64,000 nt of DNA. Source: Streptococcus cristatus AS 1.3089. Its GTDB lineage: Bacteria; Bacillota; Bacilli; Lactobacillales; Streptococcaceae. Below, piece by piece: positions 5,429 through 36,200 of the stretch (positions within the stretch are counted from its first letter, which is position 1; each line of letters opens with the position of its first letter). Below the pieces are notes generated by a model. The model made no database searches, was not told the origin of the DNA, and was given only the letters and a program-made list of their open reading frames with translations. The stretch lies in the NCBI RefSeq assembly GCF_000385925.1, contig NC_021175.1, positions 22,501 through 86,500 of the forward strand. The letters are read 5' to 3'. A program made the translations under genes and the position numbers.

Positions 5429-6413
5429 TGCCATGGGCGGAGACAATGCCCCTCAGGCTTTAGTCGAAGGTGCCAATCAGGCTCTGAGAGACTTCTCGGA
5501 TATTGAGATTGTTCTCTATGGGGATGAGGCCAAGATAAAACCTCTGTTGACAGCGACAGAGCGCGTTAGCATCGTTCATACGGATGAAAAGATTGATTCG
5601 GATGATGAGCCGACCAAGGCTATTCGCAAAAAGAAGCAAGCTAGCATGGTTTTGGCAGCTAAGGCAGTCAAAGACGGGGAAGCAGATGCGGTCCTGTCTG
5701 CTGGTAACACAGGGGCGCTTTTGGCAGCGGGCTTCTTTATCGTCGGACGGATCAAAAATATTGACCGACCAGGACTTTTGTCCACTTTACCGACTGGAGA
5801 TGGCCGAGGCTTTGATATGCTGGATCTGGGGGCAAATGCTGAAAATACCCCTCACCATCTGCACCAATATGCTATCCTAGGTTCTTTTTATGCGGAAAAT
5901 GTTCGTGGCATTAAGCAGCCACGGGTCGGTTTGCTCAATAATGGCACTGAAGCCAGCAAGGGAGATCCTCTGCGTAAGGAAACCTATGCACTGCTGGCGG
6001 CGGATGACAAGCTGAACTTCATCGGCAATATAGAGGCGCGTGACCTTATGAATGGAGTGGCAGATGTTGTCGTAGCAGATGGCTTTACGGGCAATGCTGT
6101 ACTCAAGTCTATCGAAGGAACGGCCATTAGCATCCTAGGTCAGCTTAAAAAGGCTGTGCTAGGTGGTGGTCTTAAGGCTAAACTAGGGGCTTTATTGCTT
6201 AAAGATAGCTTACAAGAGATGCGCAAGAGTCTGGACTACTCCAGTGCTGGCGGGGCCGTTCTCTTTGGTCTCAAGGCGCCAGTAGTCAAGACACACGGCT
6301 CTAGCGATGCAAAGGCCGTATATAGTACTATTCGTCAGATTCGGACCATGCTGGAGACAGATGTTGTCGGAAAATCTGTGGTAGAATTTTCAAAAGAGGT
6401 GGAAAGAGAATGA
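5409..6413 (+). CDS. plsX: Phosphate acyltransferase PlsX
   Basis: A 334-residue enzyme that converts acyl-ACP to acyl-phosphate for phosphatidic acid synthesis by PlsY. It has the PlsX N-terminus [13 protein letters not shown], the SAGNTGA motif and VVADGFTGN. The start at 5409 is chosen over an upstream in-frame start because the RBS GAGGAAGA lies just before it. It overlaps the end of recO, and acpP starts in its stop codon (ATGA), so the acyl-carrier partner is co-expressed. Confidence 0.95.
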
Positions 6414-6652
6414 ATCAAGAACAAATTTATCAAAAAGTAACAGAAATTATCCAAGAACGTCAGGGAGAGGACTTTGTGGTCCAGCCAACTTTGGGCTTAA
6501 AAGATGATTTAGGCGCTGATTCTGTTGACTTAATGGAATTTATCCTGACTTTGGAGGATGAGTTTGCGATTGAAATTTCAGATGAGGATGTTGATCGCTT
6601 TGAAAATGTCGCAGATATTGTCGCGTATTTGGAAAAGAAACTAGCGAAGTAA
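6410..6652 (+). CDS. acpP: Acyl carrier protein
   Basis: An 80-residue acidic protein with the phosphopantetheine attachment Ser38 in [11 protein letters not shown]. It carries growing acyl chains for fatty acid or phospholipid synthesis. It overlaps plsX by four bases. Streptococci often have a second acp in the fab cluster, and this plsX-linked copy is the one thought to serve phospholipid acylation. The gene ends shortly before a repeat whose first hairpin can terminate the operon. Confidence 0.93.
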
Positions 6653-6682
6653 GAAATCGACTTTGATTTGAATAGATGAAAA

Positions 6683-6857
6683 GAGGCTGGGACAAAAGTC
6701 CTAGCCTCTCAATTGTCTTTGGATTGTCGAGCAAGACGCAGTGGTTGAGTGGGCTCTACTACGCTGATTTCATCAGCTTTTACAGCCCTACTCAACTGTG
6801 CGGAGGTGGGACGACGAAATCGAATTCTAACGAATGACCGATTTCTATCCTACTCTC
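6683..6857 (+). repeat. Structured intergenic repeat, copy 2 (full length)
   Basis: Three consecutive stem-loops are seen: GAGGCTGGGAC/GTCCTAGCCTC; a long stem GTTGAGTGGGCT...AGCCCTACTCAAC with an inner GCTGAT/ATCAGC; and GAAATCG...CGATTTC. It lies between the convergent acpP and CHAP genes and could stop transcription from both sides. Confidence 0.85.
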
Positions 6858-6870
6858 TATTTTAGTGGAT

Positions 6871-8817
6871 TTATTTTGGATAGATATAGCTGACAGCTCC
6901 TTGACCAGCGGCGTAGGGATTGAACCAGCCGCGGAAGTTGCCAATATACTGTTTGCCCGCATAGTTGGATTCTTTGATTTGGATGCGGGTGTTGGATTCG
7001 ACATGGGTGACAACACCGACATGCCCATAACCACCATCGGTCCAGCAGATGATGGCTCCGACTTGTGGTGTGCTTCCTGTTCGGAAACCAGCTGCGCGTG
7101 CGCTAGCTGCCCATTGGCCACCGTTGCCCCAGTAAGGACCAGCCCAAGGAGCCAATACTTTTGCTCCCCAAGTACACTGACCATGAGGATAAGAGGAGGC
7201 TCCCGCATAATCAGGGGTGTAGAGGGTTGGCTCAGGCGTAGTTGGTTTTTGAACCTGATAGCTGGTGCCTGTAAGTCCAGTCATCTGACCATTGAGATTA
7301 CGGTAAACATGGGTATGGAAGAGTCCATTTCCAGCATGCTGTTGCGTATTGATGGTAAATTTATACAAGCCATCGCCCACTTTGTTAGCAGTGTACCATT
7401 TGATGTCATCCTGGCCATTGACCTCTGACCAAGTTGGTAGAGAAATGGTTCCTGGGCCAAAAGCATCGGAAACGGTCACTTCGTAATTGTAGGCAGATAT
7501 TTTATTGACAGAAACCCTGGCTTTGATATTTTCAGCAGAGAGAGTGACGCTGTCTGTCGCATAGCTATGTTCGCTGCCATCTTTATATTTGACGTAGATA
7601 TGATTGATATAATTGCCAGATAAGGCTTGGTGGTTGCGAATATTAAATTGTGCAGTAAAGGTCCCATCTCCATTATTACTTGCCTCATACCATTTGATAT
7701 TGCTTTGTTTATGGGTGCTCCAGATGGGAACGCGAACGGACTGAATTGGCTTAGATGTTGAAGTCTCACTGATTTTTACAGTATAGGTTCCCTGCTCAGG
7801 ATTGATATTTTCAACAGAGAAAAGCGGTTTTTGCTCTTCTGGGGAAGGCAGCTTTCCGACATCTATCGTAGCAGTTGTTCCTGCTAATCCTGTAAATTCA
7901 GGCTTGACATAGCTTTCACCGTAGAGATGGATATGGTAGGTTCCTGTATCGTAATTGTGTTTCTTCAGTTCTACTCTTACTCTGTAACTGCCATCAGAAT
8001 TTTTACTTGCCTCGTACCATTGCAAATCATCCTGACCTTTGTTTTCAGACCAAGTTGGCACAGTGACCTTGTACATGGTGTCAGGAAGATTTTTGATAAG
8101 GATTTCCATAATGCCAGGTTCAGGGAAGCTTGTCTGAATGGTCGGATTAGGCTTTTCGAGATGGAAAGTGGTACCTGATTGGTAAATCATTTTGCCATTT
8201 TTATTTTCATAAGTATCTACGAAATATTTTCCATATCCCTTGTGCTTAGAAAAGTTAAATTCAGTACTCTCTTGCCCAGCTTCATACCAATTAAGGTCAT
8301 CGCCACCATTTTCATCAGACCAAACTGCATGGACAATTTTTGAGTTCCCTTGGTCTTTATTTCGCGTAAAATTGATTCGGCCGATTTGTCCAGATGTTGT
8401 GACGCTTGTCTTGCTAGCAGGTTTATTAACAGTGAAGGTAGTGCCATTCAAGCCAATCATTTTCCCATTGATATTAATGTAAGTGTGCACATGTAAGGTG
8501 CCGTAGCCAGCGTGCTGCCGAAGGTCAACGGCTGTGCTGGATGTTTGAGGCGTAGTGTACCATTTCAAATCATCCTGCCCATTTTCGTCGGACCAGACCG
8601 CGTGGGAAATGGTATAGGGAACCTGAGCCTTGGAGCGGGCGTAATGAATCTGTGCCGTATCCCCAGTGACATTGACGGTTACATTGCTGGCACGATCAGT
8701 GGGACCTAGGACTTTATTCCCAGCTTCAGTCGATGCAACAGCTTGAACCGTGGAATGACTGGCAAATAGCCCAAGGACTGCTCCGGATAATAAAAACAGC
8801 TTCTGATATTTCTTCAT
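6871..8817 (-). CDS. Secreted CHAP-domain protein with five GBS Bsp-like repeats
   Basis: A 648-residue exported protein. The start at 8817 is chosen because AAAGGAGA stands just upstream. A signal peptide covers residues 1 to about 27. Five repeats of about 90 residues follow, each with a WY(T/E)A motif near the centre and a HxxxY-type end, as in group B streptococcal Bsp-like surface proteins. The last ~105 residues are a CHAP amidase/endopeptidase domain with C548 (GQCTWG) and H599 (GYGHVGVV). That domain is very close to the CHAP domain of PcsB. It is probably a cell-wall hydrolase bound to the surface by the repeats. No LPXTG anchor is present. Confidence 0.88.
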
Positions 8818-33416: not shown

Positions 33417-34337
33417 ATGAATAATGTTGGAAAAAGAATAGAAGAGTTGCGCAAACAAAAAGGTTTGAGCCGTCCGGCCTTTTGTGATGATGAGTCTGGT
33501 TTGTCTGTCCGCCAGTTGGCACGTATCGAAAAAGGAGAGTTTCATCCCACTCTGAAAACTCTGGAGCATATTGCAGAAAAATTGGAGATTCCAGCCTATA
33601 TCCTCATGCCTGACTATCAAGAGCTGCCAGAGCGTTATAAGGAAATCAAGTATTTTCTGCTTCATCACCCCGACTATGGAGATAAGAAGCTGCAAGAACA
33701 AAAAGATGCGTATTTTGATGAAATCTTTGAGGACTTTTATGAGAATCTCCCAAGAGATGAGCAGATAATGATCGATTGCTTGCAGGCGATTGACCAGGTG
33801 CGGGCAGGCCAAAATTCATTATATGGTCAAGGTGTGTTGGAGAATAGTTTTGACAGTCTAGTCGACGTAGAACCGTTTCATACTAGTACATTATTGAAAT
33901 CAAGACTTTATTTTCTCTGTGCATTAATGGATGGATTGAATTCAGGATTTATAAAAGAAACTACGCAAGAAGAAATTGTTCTTCTATTTAAAAAGCTATG
34001 TCATCAAATAGAAGAAACTGAATTAGAAGATTTATATTTATTGCGGGATGCTCTGTTTGCAGCACTGTGCTGTTTGGAGCTTGTTGGAGAGTTCTCCTAT
34101 TTCAAGATGGCAGTAGATAAGTTAAATTATATTATGAATAGAACCCGAGATTTCCAAAAGAAACCATTAATTTTAATGGTTGAGTGGAAATATTATATTC
34201 AGTGTGATTTTAATGAGGCAAATCGTAAGTATAAAGAGGCGAAAATGGTTGCTCAAATATTTGGAAATGAGGAATTGATAACGAGTCTTGATGGAGAATG
34301 GAAAGAAGATATAAAAAATATATTCAATAATTTTTGA
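33417..34337 (+). CDS. XRE-family regulator with TPR-like domain, TprA/Rgg-like
   Basis: A 306-residue regulator. The N-terminal HTH (about 5-60) includes IEELRKQKGLSR, LSVRQLARIEKGEFHPTLKTLEHIAEKLEIP. The remainder is an all-helical repeat domain like those of peptide-sensing RRNPP regulators (PlcR, TprA, Rgg). Such proteins bind a short pheromone and control adjacent peptide genes. It stands directly upstream of two peptide genes in the same direction. A -10 TATAAT is at 33350. The cognate pheromone gene was not found. The second half is AT-rich. Confidence 0.75.
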   Translation: MNNVGKRIEELRKQKGLSRPAFCDDESGLSVRQLARIEKGEFHPTLKTLEHIAEKLEIPAYILMPDYQELPERYKEIKYFLLHHPDYGDKKLQEQKDAYFDEIFEDFYENLPRDEQIMIDCLQAIDQVRAGQNSLYGQGVLENSFDSLVDVEPFHTSTLLKSRLYFLCALMDGLNSGFIKETTQEEIVLLFKKLCHQIEETELEDLYLLRDALFAALCCLELVGEFSYFKMAVDKLNYIMNRTRDFQKKPLILMVEWKYYIQCDFNEANRKYKEAKMVAQIFGNEELITSLDGEWKEDIKNIFNNF

Positions 34338-34344
34338 ATAGTGG

Positions 34345-34354
34345 CAGAAATGTC
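34345..34354 (-). promoter_or_regulatory. Inverted copy of the operator core
   Basis: CAGAAATGTC is the exact reverse complement of GACATTTCTG, which is found in the dyad at 34446-34459. Two copies in opposite orientation within 100 bp suggest a regulator-binding pair. Confidence 0.4.
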
Positions 34355-34371
34355 CTGATATACTAAAATTT

Positions 34372-34407
34372 TTGGCAAGATTTGATATTCTTGTCAATTT
34401 TTTTTAT
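34372..34407 (+). terminator. Terminator of the TprA-like gene
   Basis: TTGGCAAGA / TCTTGTCAA with an eight-base loop, followed by a run of nine T residues. Confidence 0.8.
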
Positions 34408-34445
34408 TTTGTTCGGATTTTACTATCTATTTATTAAAAAAATAG

Positions 34446-34488
34446 TGACATTTCTGTCATTGGTGATTTTTTGTTGCGCTGATATAAT
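34446..34488 (+). promoter_or_regulatory. Promoter and operator-like dyad of the peptide locus
   Basis: Dyad TGACA-TTTC-TGTCA at 34446-34459 ends just before the -35 TTGGTG (34460-34465). The -10 TATAAT is at 34483-34488 with 17-bp spacing. A site directly upstream of -35 suits an activator, possibly the neighbouring TprA-like protein. Confidence 0.6.
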
Positions 34489-34524
34489 TATTCTTGTAAA
34501 TAAGACATCAGGAAGGGAATGATA

Positions 34525-34710
34525 ATGTGTGAAAAAGTTATTGACGTACAAAATATTAGTAAAAAATTTGGAAAATCTAGTGCTTTACAAGATGTGTCCT
34601 TTTCTTTTCGATTAGTAAAGGTGAAATATTTGGATTTTTAGGTCCATCTGGTTCGGGAAAAACAACAATGATTATTTGAATATTAAGTTGATTCATGGAA
34701 AAAATAGTAA
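34525..34710 (+). pseudogene. ABC transporter ATPase remnant
   Basis: The start ATG has the RBS GGAAGGGA. The first frame reads VIDVQNISKKFGKSSALQDVSF. After a one-base loss near 34608 another frame continues ISKGEIFGFLGPSGSGKTT (Walker A), then hits TGA and later stops. Everything beyond Walker A is missing. It is the remains of an ATPase of the bacteriocin-immunity/export type with an intact promoter, so it is still transcribed as the leader of the peptide genes. Confidence 0.85.
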
Positions 34711-34726
34711 ATAAAGGAGTGAATTA

Positions 34727-34936
34727 ATGAGAGGTTTTAAAAATAGTATCAGTAACAAGCTACAAGGTGTTTTTCTAACTATCATTTTGTTAGGCGGTTT
34801 AGCAATTGCTTTGGTGGAAAGAAGATTATTGATTTCGTTAATTCTTATCGTGGCTATTATGATTTTATCATTTACAAATATGATATGGCTTAGACAATTA
34901 GATCAAAATGTACATTGGGAAAATAGGTCAAAATAG
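34727..34936 (+). CDS. Small membrane protein with two helices in the peptide locus
   Basis: A 69-residue protein with hydrophobic helices at about 14-30 and 34-53, with charged ends. Not recognised as a family. RBS AAAGGAG precedes it. Its position between an ABC remnant and two peptide genes is like that of small bacteriocin immunity or transport-accessory proteins; this is inference. Confidence 0.6.
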   Translation: MRGFKNSISNKLQGVFLTIILLGGLAIALVERRLLISLILIVAIMILSFTNMIWLRQLDQNVHWENRSK

Positions 34937-34956
34937 AAATTTAAAGGAGTAATTTT

Positions 34957-35106
34957 ATGGAAATGACAGACAAACATATGAATGAGATATTTTTCGAGGA
35001 AGTACCAGTAGATGAGCTTTATGGGAATGCTCGAGATTTCATTGAAGGTTTCGGTGTTGGAATTGGTATTGTAGCTGCTGCTGCAGGAATTGTAGCTTTA
35101 ACTTAA
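34957..35106 (+). CDS. Peptide precursor 1 (bacteriocin- or signal-like)
   Basis: A 49-residue ORF with RBS AAAGGAG. The N-terminal ~22 residues are a polar, acidic leader (MEMTDKHMNEIFFEE, then VPVDELYG). The C-terminal ~26 residues are hydrophobic and rich in Gly and Ala with GxxxG spacing (GFGVGIGIV, AAAAGIVALT). It has no Cys or Ser, so it is not a lanthipeptide. The paralogue starts 12 bases after its stop. The leader lacks a canonical Gly-Gly but resembles Glu/Leu-rich bacteriocin leaders ending near ELYG. Function unknown. Confidence 0.7.
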   Translation: MEMTDKHMNEIFFEEVPVDELYGNARDFIEGFGVGIGIVAAAAGIVALT

Positions 35107-35118
35107 AGGAGTAATTTT

Positions 35119-35265
35119 ATGGAAATGAAAGATAAACATATGAATGAACTATTTTTTGAAGAAGTAAAAACAGACGAACTTTATGGAGATGGGTGGTTTA
35201 TTGGAGGTGTTGCAGGTGGTGTTTTAGTTGGCGGAGCTATTTGGGCAGGCATAGTTTTAACTTAA
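35119..35265 (+). CDS. Peptide precursor 2, paralogue of peptide 1
   Basis: A 48-residue ORF with the same RBS and nearly the same leader (MEMKDKHMNELFFEE, then VKTDELYG). The core differs: DGWFIGGVAGGVLVGG then AIWAGIVLT, again with several GxxxG motifs and a final LT. Conservation of the leader and divergence of the core is the usual pattern of processed peptide pairs such as two-peptide bacteriocins. Confidence 0.7.
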   Translation: MEMKDKHMNELFFEEVKTDELYGDGWFIGGVAGGVLVGGAIWAGIVLT

Positions 35266-35277
35266 AGGAGGAAGTTT

Positions 35278-35307
35278 ATGGGAATGACATATAAACCATT
35301 TGAATAA
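35278..35307 (+). pseudogene. Stub of a third peptide gene
   Basis: A nine-codon ORF MGMTYKPFE with RBS AAAGGAGG, spaced like the two peptides before it. The start resembles the leader MEMTDKHMN. The rest is lost. A hairpin (GTAGTGG.TAAAT / ATTTA.CCACTAC, about 35318-35355) follows and may end the transcript. Confidence 0.55.
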
Positions 35308-35562
35308 AAATTAAGATTAGTAGTGGGTAAATCTCCTTCGGTATATTTATCCACTACAGAAATTATAGGGTCAAAAAGTTCCAGAGCCAATCAAGACTTT
35401 AGAACTTTTTCAATATACTTGGTTATCGGATATTTACGATAAAATAAAACTTTTGGCAATTATTGTCAAAAGTTTCAGATTGTAGACAAAGTCTTGAGAA
35501 AACACATTTCTCAGGGCTTTTTGTCGTTTTTAGGAGTATAATAGAGGTAAGAGGTGCAGCTG

Positions 35563-36200
35563 ATGTTTCATAAAAACCAAGTAGATTTAGAGCGGCAACA
35601 GCTGGAAATGTGCATGACAGCCAGCTTTTTCTGCTCCTCTTTGCCAAGCTGGAACTTTTTGAGCCCCAAACTATTGTCATGGACTCTGGTTTTAAGACGC
35701 CCAGTATTGCCAAGTTCCTGCTGGACCAGGAGCTAACGCCAGTTCTGCCTTACACCCGACCAAGGGGAGATAAGCACATGTTTCGCCCTAAAGATTTTGT
35801 TTATGATGAATACTATGACTGTTATCTCTGTCCGCAAAACCAGGTATTAAGCTACAGCACAACCAATCGTGACGGCTACCGAGAATACAAAAGCGATTCC
35901 TCTATTTGTCAAAACTGCCCTCTTTTGACTGTCTGCACCAGAGCTAAGAATCATCAGCGGGTCATCACCCGGCATGTTTGGAAGGATTATTTAGATAGAT
36001 GTGAAGATATTCGTCATACCTCTGTGATGAAGGAATGGTACAAGCGGCGCAAGGAGACTATTGAGCGAGACTTTGGGACCGCCAAAGAATATCACGGTAT
36101 GCGCTACACTAGACAGATTGGTAAGGCCAAAATGGAAGATCGGGTTGGTCTGACTTTTGCCTGCCTGAATCTCAAAAAACTGGTGAAAATGATTGCCTAG
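35563..36200 (+). mobile_element. IS1182-family transposase remnant
   Basis: From about 35610 a 196-residue frame gives the C-terminal half of an IS1182-type transposase: HDSQLF, IVMDSGFKTPSIAKFLLDQ, a CxxC...C zinc-like part (CQNCPLLTVC) and ERDFGTAKEYHGMRYTR with the catalytic Glu. The N-terminal half is absent, and the short upstream frame beginning at 35563 is out of phase. The element is dead and borders the peptide locus. Two hairpins (35449-35476 and about 35490-35520) precede it. Confidence 0.85.

Follow-up and report, generated by a model that had tools for sequence, protein, structure and literature searches.

The window analyzed here is a stretch of 64,000 nucleotides from Streptococcus cristatus AS 1.3089 (contig NC_021175.1, positions 22,501 to 86,500). 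It contains two small tandem genes, here called alpha and beta, downstream of a peptide-sensing regulator. They are very probably precursors of daptide-type ribosomally synthesized and post-translationally modified peptides (RiPPs), which would have remained when a daptide cluster of the Bacillota type was deprived of its central genes, namely the permease, the modifying enzymes and most of the ATP-binding cassette (ABC) ATPase. On the grounds of homology and gene neighbourhood we class the peptides with the daptide precursors; the window locus itself is not a daptide cluster. In what follows, G000 is the window's own genome, other G numbers are genomes of the genus and L numbers are fetched loci.

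Relatives of the precursors are found within daptide-type gene sets in S. ferus (G190, L023), S. danieliae (G206, L045) and S. ratti (G175, L026), and also in L025 (G126), L042 (G234) and L043 (G225). The complete set consists of a DapB-like protein, a short-chain dehydrogenase/reductase (SDR) oxidoreductase, a class III aminotransferase, a methyltransferase, a metalloprotease and an ABC exporter. For example, the S. ferus locus contains a regulator, an ABC ATPase and permease, a 381 amino acid protein, methyltransferase, SDR, metalloprotease, class III aminotransferase, four precursors ending in Thr and a small membrane protein, TM2. The linked ABC and protease genes which an earlier note on this DNA had proposed to look for in complete loci are therefore present beside the precursors of relatives. 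The best NCBIfam models for the S. ferus enzymes are daptide_amino (E 3e-61), daptide_HExxH (E 1.6e-14) and daptide_MTase (E 9e-8), and the same three families are the top match for all eight proteins tested from three further loci. The S. ferus aminotransferase belongs to PF00202 and its metalloprotease matches NF041824 (E 1.6e-14) and PF02163, in both cases below the cut-off. Its SDR belongs to PF13561, the family which, according to section 6 of PMC10036551, replaces the Fe-dependent dehydrogenase in Bacillota daptide clusters.

The 381 amino acid, DapB-like protein of S. ferus has no Pfam or NCBIfam match. Nevertheless, DapB of this type aligns with a Priestia plasmid protein from a cluster of like composition (hhalign probability 99.8, E 1.4e-28). 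Foldseek gives no match for it at E <= 0.001, and a second structural look gives mostly matches to residues 1-109. A source name is available for seven of 20 DapB relatives, S. mutans and S. dentapri among them, all annotated only as hypothetical or uncharacterized. Two S. mutans relatives, P0014 and P0016 (149 and 25 member sequences), are annotated as "hypothetical protein".

The earlier note had described two tandem genes and a nine-codon stub with a common ribosome site and leader. This description is correct: The open reading frames (ORFs) code for 49 and 48 amino acids, and the alpha and beta leaders agree at 19 of 23 positions. A ribosome-site pattern derived from these genes has three matches in the window, with no mismatches before beta and the stub and three before alpha, and none in 100 shuffles. 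A rule combining the leader with a final Thr selects exactly alpha and beta among 674 window ORFs of 25-80 amino acids, and nothing in 40 resamples from an order-1 Markov model. Both rules were drawn up with the genes already in view, so they are not independent tests: Independent support is given by relatives found elsewhere in the genus. Both cores lack Cys and Ser and contain two and four GxxxG motifs, as also described. The earlier note expected no lanthionine chemistry from this composition; modification of the C-terminal Thr, present in both peptides and also pointed out there, would nevertheless be expected in complete clusters, since this is the residue on which daptide enzymes act.

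In an alignment of 29 peptides ending in Thr, from 11 loci (nine streptococcal, one from Priestia and one from S. epidermidis), the positions that never vary are M1, F13, E15 and the last Thr. The peptides were picked partly by their Thr end or leader features, and include two S. epidermidis plasmid ORFs chosen by eye as well as the products of three small annotated genes next to the Priestia enzymes. An identical second copy in L043, two L042 peptides, the G008 and G040 copies, the peptides with other ends and one odd ORF from the S. gallolyticus plasmid pSGG1, which ends in Thr and lacks the leader, were left out. The leader motif of the window peptides, with F13 and E15, is common to precursors encoded beside daptide enzymes. 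When 18950 NCBIfam models are compared with the 29 precursors at E <= 0.1, only two daptide models appear, matching nine members and one. The earlier note knew of no named family with this leader. Its relatives adjoin daptide enzymes, so the family is known in kind: These are daptide precursors of the Bacillota type, orphaned in the window. Leader-bearing, precursor-like peptides ending in PVIL or PIIL, with no C-terminal Thr, are found in L025 (10268-10405), L026 (10344-10478) and L022 (3293-3415).

Comparison with S. ferus points to selection on the product. The cores agree at 25 of 26 positions (alpha) and 22 of 25 (beta), the leaders at only 11 and 17 of 23. The ratios of non-synonymous to synonymous change (dN/dS) are 0.16 for alpha and 0.06 for beta, with dS values (1.2 and 1.8) near saturation. 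This is the synonymous-like drift that the earlier note had considered. With such core conservation and low dN/dS, selection has preserved the product, more than the leader, over the greater part of the period after the common ancestor. A conserved leader and a variable core, as first suggested, are found only within the alpha and beta pair; against S. ferus the cores agree better than the leaders.

Conservation in relatives, also considered in the earlier note, is observed as well. A first search of 197 genomes of the genus found matches at E <= 0.1 in 14 of them, and four 19.5-kb stretches around the better matches were read. Seven of the 14 were weak (E 0.037-0.099, in frames of 258-303 amino acids), and have been discarded as chance. 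A search of contigs with beta alone found no relative, whole-genome searches did. Alpha and beta profiles each match 12 of 284 genomes, and the same 11, G000 included, remain after dropping one long-frame match each; matches in G213 and G124 have been discarded as chance. An alignment search finds DapB in seven genomes: six of the 11 which bear precursors, and G043, which has a divergent DapB match (E 5.6e-15), no precursor match, and does not belong to the 11. The locus in question (L044) contains a divergent daptide-like set (SDR 29%, aminotransferase 34%, DapB partial) in which no precursor has been recognised. The precursor-bearing genomes with no DapB match are G000, G008, G040, G129 and G246. 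On plasmid pSGG1, precursors, TM2 and the end piece of an aminotransferase gene adjoin an IS6-type element.

The genome of the window is a single contig, 99.99% complete. It gives no match for DapB, and none at E <= 1 for the S. ferus metalloprotease. For the daptide aminotransferase the best match has E 0.04, with only short stretches and none above the cut-off, and for the methyltransferase there is only a match with E 7e-4 over 75 residues. No SDR or methyltransferase gene was found at positions 20001-50000 of the window; no genome-wide search was made for the SDR. With DapB and metalloprotease unmatched, and only weak partial matches for aminotransferase and methyltransferase, the window locus appears to be a remnant with orphan precursors. 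These could at most be transcribed and translated, not matured. The earlier note had proposed a secreted peptide pair: There is indeed a leader-plus-core pair behind a peptide-sensing regulator, but a mature secreted pair is not expected, since the tested modifying enzymes are missing.

In complete clusters, a ComR-like receptor and its peptide would switch on the box promoter. The leader, F-x-E ... E-L-N/Y-G, would be held by a putative C-terminal RiPP recognition element of the DapB-like protein. The SDR would oxidatively decarboxylate the final Thr, and aminotransferase and methyltransferase would convert this end into a dimethylated amine. The metalloprotease would cut the leader near L-N/Y-G, and the ABC transporter would export alpha and beta, which probably would act together on membranes. 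We infer the chemistry, cleavage site and joint action from homology and from the published daptide pathway. What our own comparisons show is the homology of precursors and enzymes, the gene neighbourhood, the architecture of the promoter and, for the enzymes that were tested, the absence of any close relative from the window's genome.

The S. ferus type of locus resembles the Bacillota clusters described in the main text of PMC10036551, with a PF13561 SDR, class III aminotransferase, methyltransferase, DapB-like protein, short metalloprotease and ABC exporter, several precursors per cluster and a final Thr. Unlike those clusters, the window locus has precursors only, and the streptococcal members fall below the NCBIfam cut-offs. 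Streptococcal daptide loci have ComR-like regulators, a type of control not described in that main text, where the stem "streptococc" appears twice, both times within the reference list; the 180 Bacillota clusters of the survey, detailed in supplementary tables, may include streptococci. The precursors MpaA1-3 of Microbacterium paraoxydans share with the window family the C-terminal Thr, the hydrophobic core and the presence of several precursors, and their combinations are described as more haemolytic than single peptides (PMC10036551). On the other hand, the MpaA leader (ELExMEAP, in an actinomycete) differs from the streptococcal F-x-E...E-L-N/Y-G, and an Fe-ADH type dehydrogenase is found there instead of an SDR. 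Hominicin, from Staphylococcus hominis, is described as a peptide with a daptide-class terminus from a Bacillota producer.

Table 1. Features of the daptide remnant and its surroundings, in window coordinates.
Feature	Position	Strand	Evidence
ComR-like RRNPP transcription regulator (helix-turn-helix + ComR_TPR), probably intact	33417..34337	+	PF18710, PDB 5fd4, dN/dS, Arg pair
Altered first ComR-type box, GGCA-N4-TGTC	34343..34354	.	GACA-N4-TGTC in same position in sister genome G146
ComR-type box, TGACA-N4-TGTCA	34446..34459	+	Scan for box-23 bp-TATAAT pattern
-10 hexamer TATAAT, 23 bp 3' of box	34483..34488	+	Pattern scan
ABC exporter ATPase fragment, out of frame	34525..34673	+	tblastn with S. 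ferus ATPase
TM2, 69 amino acid two-helix membrane protein, putative immunity role	34727..34936	+	62% identity to S. ferus protein adjoining precursors
Daptide precursor alpha, 49 amino acids; leader to LYG, core NARDFIEGFGVGIGIVAAAAGIVALT (predicted cleavage site)	34957..35106	+	
Daptide precursor beta, 48 amino acids; leader to LYG, core DGWFIGGVAGGVLVGGAIWAGIVLT (predicted cleavage site)	35119..35265	+	
Stub of nine codons, MGMTYKPFE, probably what is left of a third precursor	35278..35307	+	Ribosome-site pattern, sequence
IS1182-family transposase remnant adjoining precursor remnant, also in G008 and G040	35610..36200	+	NF033551, E 2.6e-57

The ATPase fragment (Table 1) corresponds to the N-terminal 48 of about 281 residues, in two pieces and two frames, with 67% and 83% identity to the S. 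ferus protein, as expected from the decayed ABC ATPase of the earlier note. It shows short length differences among G000, G008 and G040. TM2, described there as a two-helix membrane protein, has two hydrophobic stretches on reading of its sequence. The insertion sequence (IS) remnant covers positions 293-487 of the 488 in the NF033551 profile.

The remnant has a recent history of its own. From 34338 to 36200, G000 is 98.7-100% identical to G008 or G040 feature by feature, including intergenic DNA and the IS remnant; the exceptions are short length differences and one 25-base overlap with 92% identity. The regulator of G000 is only 92-93% identical to those of G008 and G040, which are 99.2% identical to each other. 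Being so nearly identical next to such a regulator, the remnant was exchanged recently between the G000 lineage and the G008/G040 lineage. We have rejected the near-identity of the peptides in these genomes as a sign of selection: Intergenic DNA and IS remnant show the same degree of identity. One protein in the database, P0004 (a single member sequence, found on two contigs), resembles alpha in a shifted frame and may be a sequencing error.

As to the present role of the orphan pair and TM2, decay is the leading view, with TM2 possibly kept as immunity. An alternative, which we consider unlikely, is that the whole orphan locus is kept by selection: TM2 would give immunity to the daptides of neighbours, and the unmodified peptides may be decoys. 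In its favour, TM2 is found in all five precursor-bearing genomes with no DapB match, the remnant has been exchanged between lineages, and P0025, identical to the window TM2, is present on 577 contigs. Strong TM2 matches (E < 1e-27) are found in eight of 284 genomes. G205, which has no precursor or DapB match, also contains TM2, but this genome was found through TM2, which biases the count. Against this explanation, the TM2 profile finds no match in four of the six precursor genomes with DapB, and weak TM2-like ORFs are found away from daptide genes, in G192 and G116, near what read as hrcA/grpE/dnaK-like genes. The G205 loci L090 and L091 present an S. danieliae-type relative with ABC genes, TM2-like proteins and a permease in two frames, and no DapB or precursor match.

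Changes between two genomes with orphan precursors, G129 and G246, also speak against it, with small numbers. Alpha has four non-synonymous and no synonymous changes, thus no sign of selection, and dN/dS is 0.79 for TM2 as against 0.18 for the regulator. Beta has a value of 0.38 plus a five-residue difference, no higher than that of a precursor in a pair with complete clusters, G126 and G234 (precursors 0.24 and 0.40, DapB 0.16, aminotransferase 0.09). Relaxed constraint in G129 and G246 is therefore suggested for alpha and TM2 only. The dS values of alpha, beta and TM2 (0 to 0.13) are far lower than that of the regulator (0.45), so these genes may also have been exchanged.

Several results weigh against the assignment to the daptides. 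Neither alpha nor beta reaches a cut-off of the NCBIfam daptide precursor models: Alpha matches two of them below threshold (E 0.012 and 0.016; 15.3 of 40 and 15.0 of 25 bits), beta has no NCBIfam match, and Pfam has none for the peptides. Such low scores would be expected, since one of the two models is named for MpaA2, from an actinomycete. The matches of the enzymes to daptide models are also all below the curated cut-offs, and the aminotransferases are barely ahead of bioA. Alpha and beta are found together in the window and in the S. ferus, S. danieliae, G129, G246 and pSGG1 loci. This co-occurrence, the GxxxG motifs and the ABC genes of complete loci would also fit a two-peptide bacteriocin, or a signal pair, that is unmodified and has a leader of a new type. 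We regard such a pair as quite improbable: Relatives adjoin daptide-type enzymes in six of the 11 precursor-bearing genomes, and 23 of 25 ORFs picked by the leader rule or by EL[NY] plus Thr end in Thr, some of them having been picked for it. The leader also ends in L-N/Y-G. Class IIb two-peptide bacteriocins have a double-glycine leader; the window leaders end in LYG, with no GG before either core.

The regulator is ComR-like. It matches PF18710 with E 3.4e-61 (207.2 bits, cut-off 26.5) and the ComR structure 5fd4 with E 7.6e-53, and its dN/dS against G008 is 0.09. TprA/PhrA type and ComR-like regulators both belong to the peptide-sensing RRNPP group. The earlier note, which called it TprA-like, was right about peptide sensing, but ComR structures and the ComR_TPR domain are the best matches. 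According to PMC5131891, the binding site of ComR is a pseudo-palindrome, and R35 and R39 make contact with the GACA/TGTC repeat inside it. The corresponding Arg pair of the recognition helix (R35/R39 in S. ferus) is aligned in all 12 regulators compared. TGACA-N4-TGTCA followed by 23 bp and TATAAT has a single match with no mismatches in the window, and a scan with spacers of 20-26 finds 12 sites, distributed over 10 of 12 loci; the spacer is 23 in 11 of these sites and 24 in the other. Most complete clusters share this arrangement.

The closest regulators have a different cargo. Identity of the window regulator to those of daptide loci is only 26-30%, as against 95-96% to those of G157 and G146. 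Both sister genomes have adhE upstream (93% identity over the stretch in G146, 84% in G157) and an identical 43-bp box promoter. The cargo consists of a ComS-like peptide whose last residues are WWG or WWK, together with a protein of some 105 residues, a 30 amino acid peptide and ABC genes. As described in PMC5131902, type II XIPs are marked by WW motifs, and their genes come immediately after comR. Among seven fetched loci whose regulators have about 60% identity or more, a WW peptide lies behind the box in G146, G157 and G090, and our script did not find one in G065, G236, G001 and G025. G008 and G040 contain a second box promoter with a WWG peptide 3' of the IS remnant. Behind the window box there is no ComS-like (WW) gene. 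The WWG peptide gene of G008 was not found elsewhere in the window's own genome, where, beyond very short matches, its promoter part alone was matched. In complete clusters, short ComS-like ORFs lie behind the box promoter in L043 (17083-17145, minus strand), L045 (9891-9950) and L023 (1855-1896); the last one, from S. ferus, is shortened by a stop codon relative to the other two.

We infer that the regulator slot existed first and later received the daptide operon; the events may also have taken place in the reverse order. The daptide ATPase could start 36 bases after TATAAT, a point which in G146 and G157 is the start of the pheromone ORF; an alternative ATG is found six bases earlier. A wider idea can be put forward tentatively, as it is less likely to be right than wrong: The adhE-linked ComR-like regulator and box promoter would be a fixed slot for swapped small-peptide cassettes, with the daptide operon fused at the start codon of its first gene, at the site of the double-tryptophan pheromone gene of G146 and G157. 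After the loss of the enzymes, alpha, beta and TM2 would have spread because TM2 or the unmodified peptides were useful. This slot idea is based on few loci, since only three of seven show a WW peptide and 162 of 284 genomes have a regulator match at E <= 1e-40.

The position of alpha and beta downstream of the box promoter might suggest that they are themselves the pheromone of the regulator. This is highly improbable: G146 and G157, which share the promoter and have nearly the same regulator, carry at this position a short ComS-like ORF with a double tryptophan, and daptide precursors are also found in loci with the distant regulators mentioned above. Least probable of all, close to negligible, is maturation in trans, with the enzymes encoded at another place in the genome, for which we have found no support: DapB and metalloprotease have no match, the aminotransferase matches are short and no better than E 0.04, and the methyltransferase match is probably general, an unrelated enzyme set being invisible to the homology search used.

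The system resembles ComRS and the ComR paralogues ScuR/SarF, as presented in PMC6703854, PMC5131902 and PMC5131891, in its ComR_TPR receptor, GACA/TGTC inverted-repeat box, WW-ending short ORF in sister genomes and control of antimicrobial peptides. Unlike these systems, the window promoter fronts a daptide remnant, with no WW peptide gene found in the window. If orphan daptide precursors are indeed what alpha and beta are, a peptide family taken as undescribed gains a directly testable chemistry. Streptococcal daptide clusters with all expected genes are indicated in S. ferus, S. danieliae, S. ratti and others, with a predictable product. Daptides would also be tied to ComR-type control, one regulator having a different peptide cargo across genomes, and such changing cargo would bear on how streptococci rewire the production of antimicrobial peptides.

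Some peptides found near such regulators may also be mentioned. The 30 amino acid peptide MAKQIKK..NTINLGIISYTYTRGRHSI, with no Pfam match, is present in eight tandem copies in L106 (G146, reverse strand 6236-7070) and in one copy in L107 (G157, reverse strand 6645-6737). The conserved protein of about 105 residues lies directly 3' of the WW peptide in L027 (8103-8417, with no Pfam match), L106, L107 and L108, and L110 also has a relative of the L027 protein. In L108 (G090), two Trp-rich peptides of 31 amino acids are encoded at 5491-5700 under a like regulator; the one that was checked has no Pfam match.
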